33,858 bases of DNA from assembly GCA_031276915.1 (NCBI GenBank), contig JAISME010000169.1:1-33858 (forward strand), in the 5' to 3' direction. A program made the translations under genes and the position numbers. This DNA comes from Zoogloeaceae bacterium. Its GTDB lineage: Bacteria > Pseudomonadota > Gammaproteobacteria > Burkholderiales > Rhodocyclaceae. Of the stretch, positions 7,559 to 33,858 are shown in pieces; positions within the stretch are counted from its first letter, which is position 1, and every line of letters starts with the position of its first letter. Under the pieces are notes generated by a model that was given only the letters and a program-made list of their open reading frames with translations, did not search any database and was not told where the DNA came from.

Positions 7559-8158
7559 TCAGGGCGTCACGCCATAACGACAACGGGCAGGTAGGTACTT
7601 GCCATATTTTTTCAAGGAAGCCGAAACGGCCAAGCTACATCCCCAGACCATGTTGGAAAGATTGGAATTGCCAATTGGATTGCCATTTTCATCAAATGAC
7701 AACACCACTTTGGGTCTTCCATCGGCTTGGATTGGGCCAAAGCCTGGCGTCAGCTTGAACGCGAATTTTGGCACCTTTTTGCCGTCCATCTCGATATAGA
7801 TCAAACCGTCATGACCAAAAGTGTCAGAACCTCCACCCGGATTGACCAGAGGATTGAGCTTGATCGCTGCGATTGCGCCGGTGGGCTTGAATTCGAAATC
7901 CGGGAAAGCTCCCTTGGGTGGTTTTCCGGTGCCGGGGTACGCAACAGTGATTTTTGCCGCGTTGCCGCTGGCGATTGTCTCCGTAATGATCATCTTGGCC
8001 TTTCCCGCGATGCTCAACCCTTCGGCGACATAGGCGCGGGCGATATAGTTCTGATAGGCGGGCAGCGCGATGGCGGCAAGGATGCCGATGATGGCGACGA
8101 CGATCATCAGTTCGATGAGCGTGAAGCCACGCTGGAAGGTGTGTACAAGATGTTTCAT
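7559..8158 (-). CDS. Type IV major-pilin-like protein, cassette 1
   Basis: This 199-residue prepilin starts with a short leader, [11 protein letters not shown], cut by prepilin peptidase after Gly11. Mature [22 protein letters not shown] carries Glu5, needed for pilus assembly, and the hydrophobic spine. A pair of C-terminal cysteines (Cys174, Cys193) should close the disulfide loop. The start at 8158 has a strong AAAGGAG site; the frame stays open far upstream, but that DNA is non-coding leader. The N-terminus, ribosome site and leader closely match the pilin at 32735-33334, whereas the bodies differ. No pil assembly genes are nearby. A minor or alternative pilin is possible. Transcription may come from the sigma-54 promoter at 9000-9015, through an 830-base leader. 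Confidence 0.9.
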
Positions 8159-8194: not shown

Positions 8195-8236
8195 AAAAAA
8201 AGCCGCGAACATGTACCAAGGCATGTACCCGCGACC
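8195..8236 (-). terminator. Terminator-like hairpin in the leader of pilin 1
   Basis: On the minus strand an imperfect hairpin (8202-8213 against 8221-8236, with a small bulge and G-U pairs) is followed by seven T (8201-8195), only 37 bases before the pilin start codon. The second pilin has a perfect 15-bp version at the same place with different stem bases, so the structure seems conserved. It points towards the pilin gene, not away from it. An attenuator or the end of a leader RNA are the obvious readings. Confidence 0.55.
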
Positions 8237-8383
8237 GGAGTGGTAAAACTGGGAAAAACAAGGGAACCGGAAACCCGGAGGGAAAAGAAACCCGGGAAAC
8301 CCGGAAGGAAAAACGAGGTCCTGCGGCCGGCAATTTGTCATTCGCGGATTTGCGCCTTCCCGTGGGGGAAACGGCAAGGTGGG

Positions 8384-8429
8384 GGGAGCATCCTGCTCCC
8401 CCGTGTCCGAACGGGAGCAGGGTGCTCCC
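8384..8429. repeat. Two tandem hairpins able to pair as one long arm, copy 1
   Basis: GGGAGCA-TCC-TGCTCCC (8384-8400) and GGGAGCA-GGG-TGCTCCC (8413-8429) are each perfect 7-bp hairpins. The two are also nearly reverse complements, so they can form a single 17-bp stem instead. This resembles BIME/REP-type extragenic palindromes. The counterpart in the second pilin leader is 33481-33526. Confidence 0.75.
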
Positions 8430-8576
8430 GCTACTTTGCCGTCGGTCCTGCGAACGGCGATTGCCCTGCGGGCAGCAATAATTGTTTTGGGGGAATTCAT
8501 TATCCGCAGGACCGATGCGGCAATCCATGAAGTGGTTCAGCAATCCGAAACGCTGGAGCGGACCGCAAGGCTGTCT

Positions 8577-8610
8577 GGATTGCCACGGGCCTGCGGCCCT
8601 CGCAATGACG
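8577..8610. repeat. REP-like palindrome of the CGTCATTGCGAGG type, copy 1
   Basis: Read on the minus strand this is CGTCATTGCGAGG, a short palindromic core, and then a GGCAATCC end. It resembles a widely scattered extragenic repeat I recall from many proteobacteria. A second copy lies at 33674-33707. Confidence 0.65.
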
Positions 8611-8665
8611 ATGTGGGGTGTGATTACAAGAACGAGGGGAAACACGTCCGCAACCGGGACGGTGA

Positions 8666-8762
8666 AACAAGGAAAAGCAAAAAAACCGGAAAACCCGGAA
8701 AGGAAAGGGAAACCGGAAGGGGAAGGGGAAGGAAAGGCTGGAGAAGAAGAGAGAAAGAACTC
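8666..8762 (-). other. Polypurine tract (pyrimidine-rich leader RNA on the minus strand)
   Basis: About 95 bases consist almost only of A and G with a few CC pairs on the plus strand. A minus-strand leader transcript would be an unstructured C/U-rich run, the kind of sequence on which Rho loads. No gene is seen. Confidence 0.4.
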
Positions 8763-8781
8763 GGCGTTATCCAGACGCCGA

Positions 8782-8821
8782 AAAATTTTCTCCGTTATCT
8801 GTGGATAACGGAGAAAATTTT
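8782..8821. repeat. Perfect 18-bp inverted repeat, possible terminator
   Basis: AAAATTTTCTCCGTTATC (8782-8799), loop TGTG, then its exact reverse complement (8804-8821). On the minus strand the hairpin runs into five T (8785-8781). Located about 170-210 bases after the predicted start of the sigma-54 promoter B, it could end a short leader transcript. Confidence 0.6.
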
Positions 8822-8823
8822 CA

Positions 8824-8879
8824 CGTTGTGCGTTGTGCGTTGTGCGTTGTGCGTTGTGCGTTGTGCGTTGTGCGTTGTG
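8824..8879. repeat. Heptamer tandem repeat, eight units of CGTTGTG
   Basis: Eight perfect seven-base units run from 8824 to 8879. They sit exactly between two long inverted repeats (8782-8821 and 8876-8924) in the transcribed leader predicted from promoter B. Seven is not a multiple of three and no gene spans the tract, so slippage here would alter RNA length, not a protein. Confidence 0.95.
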
Positions 8880-8924
8880 CGCGCGCGATCGCCAGGCTTT
8901 CAGCCTGGCAATCGCGCGCGCACA
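8876..8924. repeat. Near-perfect 22-bp inverted repeat
   Basis: TGTGCGCGCGCGAT (8876-8889) and GCCAGGCT (8891-8898) pair with AGCCTGGC (8902-8909) and ATCGCGCGCGCACA (8911-8924), leaving one mismatch and a three-base loop. The right arm runs into repeat copy B, and copy A contains only that right-arm sequence. Confidence 0.85.
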
Positions 8925-8999: not shown

Positions 9000-9015
9000 C
9001 GCAAGACATGTGCCA
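9000..9015 (-). promoter_or_regulatory. Sigma-54 (RpoN) promoter, copy B
   Basis: The minus strand reads TGGCAC-N5-TTGCG, matching the RpoN -24/-12 elements with correct spacing. Expected start is near 8989. The first downstream gene in this direction is the pilin at 8158, about 830 bases on, after the heptamer tract and several hairpins. Confidence 0.7.
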
Positions 9016-9091
9016 GAAACACTCAAATCCCTTAACCCCTTGATTATCCTTCCTTGTCCATTCTCCCACCCTCACCCCAACAACACAGGAG

Positions 9092-32388: not shown

Positions 32389-32529
32389 ATGGCGCGAAAG
32401 GCAAGCGGAGCGGATCAAGCCGCGGCAGCGCGCGCGTTGTCGGGGACGGTGAAAACAGCGGATGAACCGGGGACGGCGCGTATGGTGTCGCTGCCGCTGG
32501 AAAAGCCGGTTCCATCAGGGAAGCCCTGA
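32389..32529 (+). CDS. Small hypothetical protein, 46 residues
   Basis: An ATG with an excellent ribosome site (AGGAGG, five bases spacing) opens 46 codons: alanine-rich, basic start MARKASGADQAAAARAL, and a proline-rich end. A short palindrome ACGGGT-A-ACCCGT (32349-32361) and a TATACG box lie just upstream, so it may have its own promoter. I recognise no family. It could also be the stump of a longer gene cut by the repeat that begins at about 32535. Confidence 0.4.
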   Translation: MARKASGADQAAAARALSGTVKTADEPGTARMVSLPLEKPVPSGKP

Positions 32530-32534
32530 TCCAC

Positions 32535-32571
32535 GGGCGGGATTCCAGATTGGAGTTCGTTCCACGATGGT
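32535..32571 (+). repeat. Short repeat shared with the cytochrome c' leader
   Basis: About 35 bases from GGGCGGGATT through GGAGTT to ACGATG match 10330-10364, including the ribosome site and start codon of the cytochrome c' gene, at about three bases in four. Here the ATG (32569) would open a 53-codon frame without any resemblance to a known protein. I regard it as a copy of an extragenic repeat. Confidence 0.45.
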
Positions 32572-32573
32572 GG

Positions 32574-32605
32574 AAAAAAATCCCCCGGGATTCATTGCCG
32601 GGGGA
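32574..32605 (-). terminator. Rho-independent terminator of pilin 2
   Basis: TCCCCCGG (32581-32588) pairs with CCGGGGGA (32598-32605), loop of nine. On the minus strand seven T follow (32580-32574); on the plus strand GATTTT follows, so it may act both ways. It lies 130 bp after the pilin stop. Confidence 0.85.
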
Positions 32606-32734
32606 GATTTTGCTTGCCAGCGGTTCGTGGCGTTGCGCCGCCGGAACGCCCGGAGCCGCTTCCTGCGAGGCGGTGGATTCCGGGCCGGGTCGTCTGCTGG
32701 TTGCGCGCCTGTCACATGCCCGTATATATAAACC

Positions 32735-33334
32735 TCACTTCGGCAGGACTACGCTCCTGTACCGGCATCTGCTGGGAATATATTTGGCAATCTTGGTGAA
32801 AGACTGTATTTGGCTGGAGCCACTCACGAGACAACCCCAGACGATGGAACCACCGCCAGCATAATTTTTCTTGCTACCACCAGCGATACCCGAGGCCAGA
32901 GGCGTTTCGGGAACACCGGAATCACCGTCGATCTTGCCAAACCCCGCGGCCAGCCCAATCACGATCCCCAGTCTATCCAGCGTTTTGTTCCTGCCGCCAT
33001 ACCAGATGCGGACAACAGAGTAGTCATCACTTCCCCCGATCTGGATTTTCTTTACATTGGCCGTTGGCTTGAATTCGTAGTTGAAGCTGCCTTTGATCGG
33101 CTTCCCGGTGCCGGGATAACCCGTTTGGGGAAGTGAGCCATTTTCGGTCCAGTAGTCAACGAAAGCCGCTTTGGCCCCTGCCGAGAGTTGCAGCCCTTCG
33201 GCGATGTAGGCGCGGATGGTGTAAGCCTGATAGGCGGGAAGCGCGATGGCGGCAAGGATGCCGATGATGGCAACAACGATCATCAGTTCGATGAGCGTGA
33301 AGCCGCGCTGGAAAACGCGTACAAGATGTTTCAT
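32735..33334 (-). CDS. Type IV major-pilin-like protein, cassette 2
   Basis: A second 199-residue prepilin. Leader [11 protein letters not shown] is cut after Gly11; mature [25 protein letters not shown] is identical to pilin 1 up to that point, with Glu5 present. The disulfide-loop cysteines are Cys168 and Cys190 and, as in pilin 1, are set in WGC and RCRY motifs. The middle shares only short words with pilin 1 (YPGTGKP.KG.F, FKPT) and is otherwise divergent. AAAGGAG precedes the ATG. A perfect terminator-like hairpin lies 35 bases upstream of the start codon, and a real terminator follows the gene. No promoter is seen within the window; it would lie beyond 33858. Confidence 0.92.
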
Positions 33335-33368
33335 GATGATGCTCCTTTGGAAAAAAAGAAGGAAGAAC

Positions 33369-33409
33369 AAAAAAGGCCGCGGACGCGTGAAAGACACGCG
33401 CCCGCGACC
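33369..33409 (-). terminator. Terminator in the leader of pilin 2
   Basis: On the minus strand 33409-33395 pairs along 15 bp (two G-U pairs) with 33389-33375, loop of five, followed by six T (33374-33369). This is a textbook intrinsic terminator pointing into the pilin gene, whose start codon is 35 bases further on. There is no room for a promoter between them, so transcription of the pilin must read through it. Confidence 0.8.
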
Positions 33410-33480
33410 GGGGTGGTCCTGCGGACGGCATTTGTCATCCGCGGATTTGCGCCTTCCCGTGGGGGAAACGGCAAGGTGGG

Positions 33481-33526
33481 GGGAGCATCCTGTTCCCTCG
33501 TGTCCGAACGGGAGCAGGATGCTCCC
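33481..33526. repeat. Tandem hairpins able to pair as one long arm, copy 2
   Basis: The arms 33481-33497 and 33510-33526 are reverse complements over 17 bp with one mismatch. The second arm is also a perfect hairpin by itself. Counterpart of 8384-8429. Confidence 0.75.
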
Positions 33527-33673
33527 GCTACTTTGCCGTCGGTCCTGCGAACGGCGATTGCCCTGCGGGCAGCAATAATTGTTTTGGGGAAACCCGCCGT
33601 CCGCAGGACCGACGTGGCAATCCACGCGGTGGTTCAGTTTTCCGAAACGCTGAAGCAAATTACAAGGCCGTCT

Positions 33674-33707
33674 GGATTGCCACGGGCCTTCGGCCCTCGC
33701 AATGACG
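33674..33707. repeat. REP-like palindrome of the CGTCATTGCGAGG type, copy 2
   Basis: Nearly identical to 8577-8610, with one base change inside the palindromic core (CTTCGG in place of CTGCGG). Confidence 0.65.
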
Positions 33708-33734
33708 AAGATTTGGAAGGTTGCGGGAAAAATT

Positions 33735-33779
33735 GCTGTCCGCAGGGTCGCCGTCCGCAGGGTTGCCGTCCGCAGGACC
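33735..33779. repeat. 15-bp tandem repeat, three units
   Basis: Three units of the pattern GCYGTCCGCAGGRYY run head to tail at 33735-33749, 33750-33764 and 33765-33779. The core CCGTCCGCAGG also occurs once at 33598-33608, at the edge of the inverted repeat in this leader, so the array may have grown from that. Confidence 0.85.
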
Positions 33780-33858
33780 GGGCCTGCGGTTCTCACAATG
33801 ATGCGTTGGGGCGTGATCGCAGGAACAAGGGGAAACGCGCCCGCGATCGGAGTGATAA

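Follow-up and report, generated by a model that had tools for sequence, protein, structure and literature searches.

Stems of the ompA type protect an mRNA from its 5′ end, and opa genes are switched by repeats. In Clostridioides difficile, the type IV pilin gene pilA1 has a regulated terminator in its 5′ leader, with a class II c-di-GMP riboswitch, and synthesis of the pilin needs read-through (PMC6366702). RNA 3′ ends within 5′ UTRs are a common regulatory device in Escherichia coli (PMC7815308). In Neisseria, the pilS copies are silent and lack a promoter and ribosome site, whereas the opa copies are complete genes (PMC4534519).

Here, we analyze a 33,858-nt stretch of DNA (the window), contig C162 in a draft genome (G000) of 2.3 Mb and 194 contigs that is 86% complete. 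Its two type IV pilin genes resemble C. difficile pilA1 in having a terminator-type hairpin in the 5′ leader; unlike pilA1, they have no aptamer or Rfam match, belong to many gene copies, and show no evident antiterminator. Compared with premature termination in E. coli 5′ UTRs, the present case differs in that one hairpin design recurs family-wide and in that it is known from sequence alone. The order of stem, single-stranded region, and Shine–Dalgarno sequence is that of an ompA-type leader, for which the nearest match is the hairpin at the start site of canonical pilA; the stem of the pilin family, in contrast, is internal to a long leader. Many variable surface-protein copies per genome are also a trait of Neisseria pilS/pilE and opa. 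We rejected a silent cassette of the pilS type: unlike pilS, the family copies have promoter-like sites (in 15 leaders) and, where readable, an AAAGGAG-type ribosome site and a start codon. The opa genes, being complete, are nearer than pilS, although the part of the source used here describes no leader terminator for them (PMC4534519).

Results

The second pilin gene of the window (minus strand, 32735–33334; 199 aa; N_methyl PF07963 and Pilin PF00114) is preceded on the same strand by a hairpin (33375–33409) identified by sequence and folding. Its 15-bp stem, in which 12 of 15 pairs are G-C, closes a 5-nt loop and, read in the pilin sense from 33409 to 33375, runs directly into six T residues (33374–33369). 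A T/C-rich stretch, the Shine–Dalgarno sequence AAAGGAG (33348–33342, read directly), and the ATG (33334–33332) follow. A sequence-only reading of this DNA had described a 15-bp stem plus T6 pointing into the pilin gene about 35 bases ahead of its start codon. Both statements are borne out: the T6-to-ATG gap measures 34 nt, and the stem ends 40 nt from the ATG. The minimum free energy of the 59-nt piece containing the stem is −32.6 kcal/mol, compared with −14.2 ± 2.6 kcal/mol for dinucleotide shuffles (z −7.24), and none of 200 shuffles reaches it. Both hallmarks of an intrinsic terminator, a GC-rich stem-loop and a U-run right after the stem, are thus present. Because the T-run lies on the pilin-sense side only, the element is unidirectional. 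A consensus scan around the gene detected no sigma70-type promoter in 32500–33858, in agreement with the claim that none separates hairpin and gene; the promoter of the second pilin lies past the contig end.

The first pilin gene (minus strand, 7559–8158; 199 aa) shares the N_methyl motif (PF07963), whereas the Pfam Pilin cut-off is reached by the second pilin only. Its leader hairpin (minus strand, 8236–8202, from sequence and folding), with a T7 run read from the sequence at 8201–8195, had been said to occupy the same place with retained pairing. That is so, but the structure is looser than claimed: it has a 2-nt bulge, a free energy of −15.2 kcal/mol, and a z score of −2.0, and its arms are predicted to pair partly elsewhere in folds of the long leader. 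The same leader holds, all on the minus strand, a sigma54-type promoter, TCTGGCACATGTCTTGC (9001–9017, a consensus match), 859 nt before the ATG; a tandem array of 8.3 copies of a 7-nt unit (CGTTGTG on the plus strand; 8824–8881); and a second structure, hairpin A (8781–8822), whose 19-bp arms covary across copies. Another sigma54-type site, with one mismatch, lies at 234–250 on the minus strand, directed off the contig start; it probably marks the leader of a further pilin that the contig truncates.

The large pilin family and most of its remote promoter-plus-repeat leaders lie outside the window and so escaped the sequence-only reading. With the leader as query, the draft genome yielded at least 40 matches, every match listed ending at a pilin start; the pilin protein gave 83, among them contig-end fragments and more distant pilins. 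Counting family start codons puts the number of related type IV pilin genes at no fewer than 49 (46 from a scripted list and three added by hand, namely C58 with a GTG start, C126, and C136). Five of them begin at a contig edge, and the leader is readable in the remaining 44. Long, intact coding sequences number 42; their pN/pS is ∼0.16 over the N-terminal portion and 0.59 over the remainder. The pilin coding regions are under purifying selection as proteins, and the genes must therefore be expressed at some time. Full-length, strong, multiple matches of this pilin type were confined to the source genome and that of a sister species (G006) among 398 genomes drawn from the bacterial family, and G006 was the sole genome with full-length relatives among 20 of the same genus. 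The closest named DnaE is that of 'Betaproteobacteria bacterium MS502-89' (77% identity), followed by Accumulibacter (68%). In the open-licence papers searched, we found no description of a multicopy pilin family of this kind.

A hairpin and a T-rich run precede the start codon in 44 of 44 readable leaders. The stem-to-ATG distance is 39 to 45 nt in the main family and about 42 to 43 nt in contig C90 and G006. The T-run follows one common stem family in 42 leaders; the two others, both on C90, have the stem GGCGGGTCGGGAAAC/GTTTCTCGACCCGCC and then ATTTT (z −6.4 and −5.3). Two G006 genes carry CCGCAGTCGCATG/CATGCGACTGCGG or a near copy, again with a T-run (z −8.3 and −7.2), such that unrelated stems of 13 to 15 bp occupy the equivalent position in two C90 paralogues and two G006 genes. 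The hairpin of a third G006 gene (on C78) is weaker (z −2.9).

Covariation of the stem in further pilin leaders, proposed earlier as a check, did not exceed chance. Across 37 paralogues, pairing is kept in 97.3% of stem cells; over 33 distinct stems the value is 97.2%, versus 96.6% in shuffles, 137 of 2000 of which match it. The same method detects covariation in hairpin A, for which 0 of 2000 arm swaps were as good. We consequently dropped paralogue covariation as proof of the hairpin, and the claim of a conserved structure stands instead on its presence in every readable leader and on the exchange of its stem for unrelated ones in C90 and G006. Judged from the leaders compared, such wholesale replacement speaks more strongly for conservation than covariation does. 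The commonest stem change, G-C to G·U, preserves pairing in the sense RNA and loses it in DNA or antisense RNA; the many G·U pairs could thus fit a structure of the sense RNA, with mutational bias as the alternative explanation.

The chance-level covariation among paralogues would also fit a hairpin that has no function of its own, being one of many palindromic repeats of the leaders, homogenised by recombination between copies. The leaders are full of repeated palindromes, and distances between leaders show no correlation with those between the variable coding parts (Mantel r 0.06), which suggests recombination between pilin copies by leader exchange. Gene conversion, however, cannot account for the unrelated stems and T-runs at the equivalent place in C90 and G006, and the position of the hairpin is fixed, whereas the repeats upstream of it vary. 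We consider a functionless repeat improbable.

The assembly reaches a promoter-like site in 15 leaders, 195 to 1247 nt upstream of the ATG. Nine of these sites are of the sigma70 type, resembling TTGACAAACCGGAATATGCAAACATAAT, and six of the sigma54 type, resembling TCTGGCACATGTCTTGC, the assignments being consensus matches and not mapped starts. All 15 leaders long enough have the promoter-like site upstream, the gene downstream, and none between; RNA polymerase must hence pass the hairpin to make a pilin transcript. Thirteen of these leaders show a 7–8-nt tandem array downstream of the promoter-like site, at 0 to 18 nt past a sigma70-type site and at 117 to 122 nt past a sigma54-type site. 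Array units across leaders include CGCACAA, GCAGGCA, GCAAGCC, AGCAAAC, and ACGGCTCA, in differing copy number. The arrays lie close downstream of the promoters, and repeat-length switching by them is possible. Many leaders contain inserted repeats, both palindromic ones of the GTCATTGCGAGGGCC type and those of the AGCGGGAGCATCCTGCTCCC type, for example at 8595–8609 and 33692–33706. A search with hairpin A for other genes under such a leader returned, for the most part, additional leaders truncated at contig edges. On contig C47 of G006, a different pilin (start ∼821) has a sigma54 promoter, a long leader, and a strong hairpin, GAAACCCCGGC/GCCGGGGTTTC, near the ribosome site.

From the tandem array to the leader hairpin (e.g., 8195–8824), all 21 leaders compared have one sense frame that contains no stop codon. 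This feature, together with the precedent of C. difficile pilA1 (PMC6366702), would speak for an attenuator with a specific signal, be it the ligand of a riboswitch or the codons of a leader peptide. The frame does not look coding, however: its GC content by codon position is flat (0.59/0.55/0.58, versus 0.68/0.41/0.77 in dnaE), and substitutions affect all three codon positions equally, on which grounds a translated leader ORF was rejected. Likewise, no Rfam aptamer or riboswitch matched at gathering level in the window and seven related loci, and a known riboswitch, that for c-di-GMP included, was rejected. An attenuator of either kind is highly improbable.

As a terminator, the leader hairpin scores consistently: each of the 41 leaders evaluated has a d'Aubenton-Carafa score above 0 (median 60). 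Eighteen sites 3′ of pilin genes also pass (median 33), these being best-scoring sites and not proven terminators. Further terminator-like hairpins occur in the leaders, among them hairpin A, with a d of 30, and an additional one in G006, with a d of 55. In most predicted folds of the full leader, the leader hairpin forms, and no competing antiterminator fold is evident. In the 86%-complete assembly, one NusG-family gene and no RfaH/LoaP-type factor were detected; given the single NusG gene found there, an NusG-type antiterminator was set aside.

Discussion

The leaders analyzed here may contain, with a probability that we place a little short of even, an intrinsic-terminator-type attenuator that keeps each pilin low barring read-through. 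RNA polymerase would start at a sigma54- or sigma70-type promoter 195 to 1247 nt upstream and transcribe the repeat array and the other leader hairpins before reaching the leader hairpin, at whose T-run most transcription complexes would stop. Pilin mRNA would then arise from read-through only, leaving each of the ∼50 pilin genes weakly or conditionally expressed. The earlier proposal that expression needs read-through or antitermination agrees with the terminator anatomy, the lack of an intervening promoter, the hairpin in all 44 leaders, and the necessity of crossing it; the antitermination partner is the part for which the folds give no evident candidate. Also in favor of attenuation are the terminator scores, the unrelated C90 and G006 stems that retain a T-run, the many G·U pairs, the additional terminator-like hairpins of the leaders, and the precedent of C. 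difficile pilA1. Constitutive termination is opposed by the intact pilin genes, and a built-in switch by the lack of a competing fold in most leaders, the lack of an Rfam match, and the single NusG.

A further argument against the attenuator comes from the ordinary pilA genes of the genus, which carry a similar module right where transcription is predicted to begin and where termination is impossible. In relatives, canonical pilA has a sigma54 promoter and a small CAGCG...CGCTG hairpin with a T-run, the hairpin beginning ∼11 to 12 nt past the −12 element, which is the expected sigma54 start and the predicted 5′ end of the mRNA (three cases computed, the others read from the leaders). By analogy, the hairpin of the pilin family could be a 5′-UTR protector and ribosome standby site, a possibility we entertain with some doubt: the leader would be cut just upstream, and the stem, left as the 5′ end of the mRNA, would shield it from RNase E and be followed by a U/C-rich landing site before AAAGGAG. 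The near-constant spacing of stem and ATG despite differing stems, the retention of the hairpin in all readable copies, and the intactness of the genes favor such a role. Yet a stem at the very 5′ end, which holds by prediction for canonical pilA, would require processing in the pilin family, since there the hairpin lies hundreds of nucleotides inside the transcripts; moreover, stem and U-tract exceed the strength needed for protection. Predicted access to the Shine–Dalgarno sequence is also unchanged with or without the hairpin, and for this reason control of that site by the hairpin was rejected. If the stem were broken, attenuation and protection would predict changes in opposite directions.

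More surprising than the hairpin alone is its setting, a large family of complete pilin genes that combine a promoter, a tandem repeat, and a leader of the terminator type. It is conceivable, if on balance unlikely, that these ∼50 complete genes, each with a promoter, a length-variable 7–8-nt repeat, and a gating terminator, form an opa-like contingency family in which read-through, perhaps tuned by the repeats, selects the pilins that are made. If the hairpin terminates, read-through at one defined hairpin would offer a simple assay, with many natural variants of unequal stem strength. One RNA device would then restrain ∼50 surface-fibre genes, and a large repertoire could be carried without being fully expressed.
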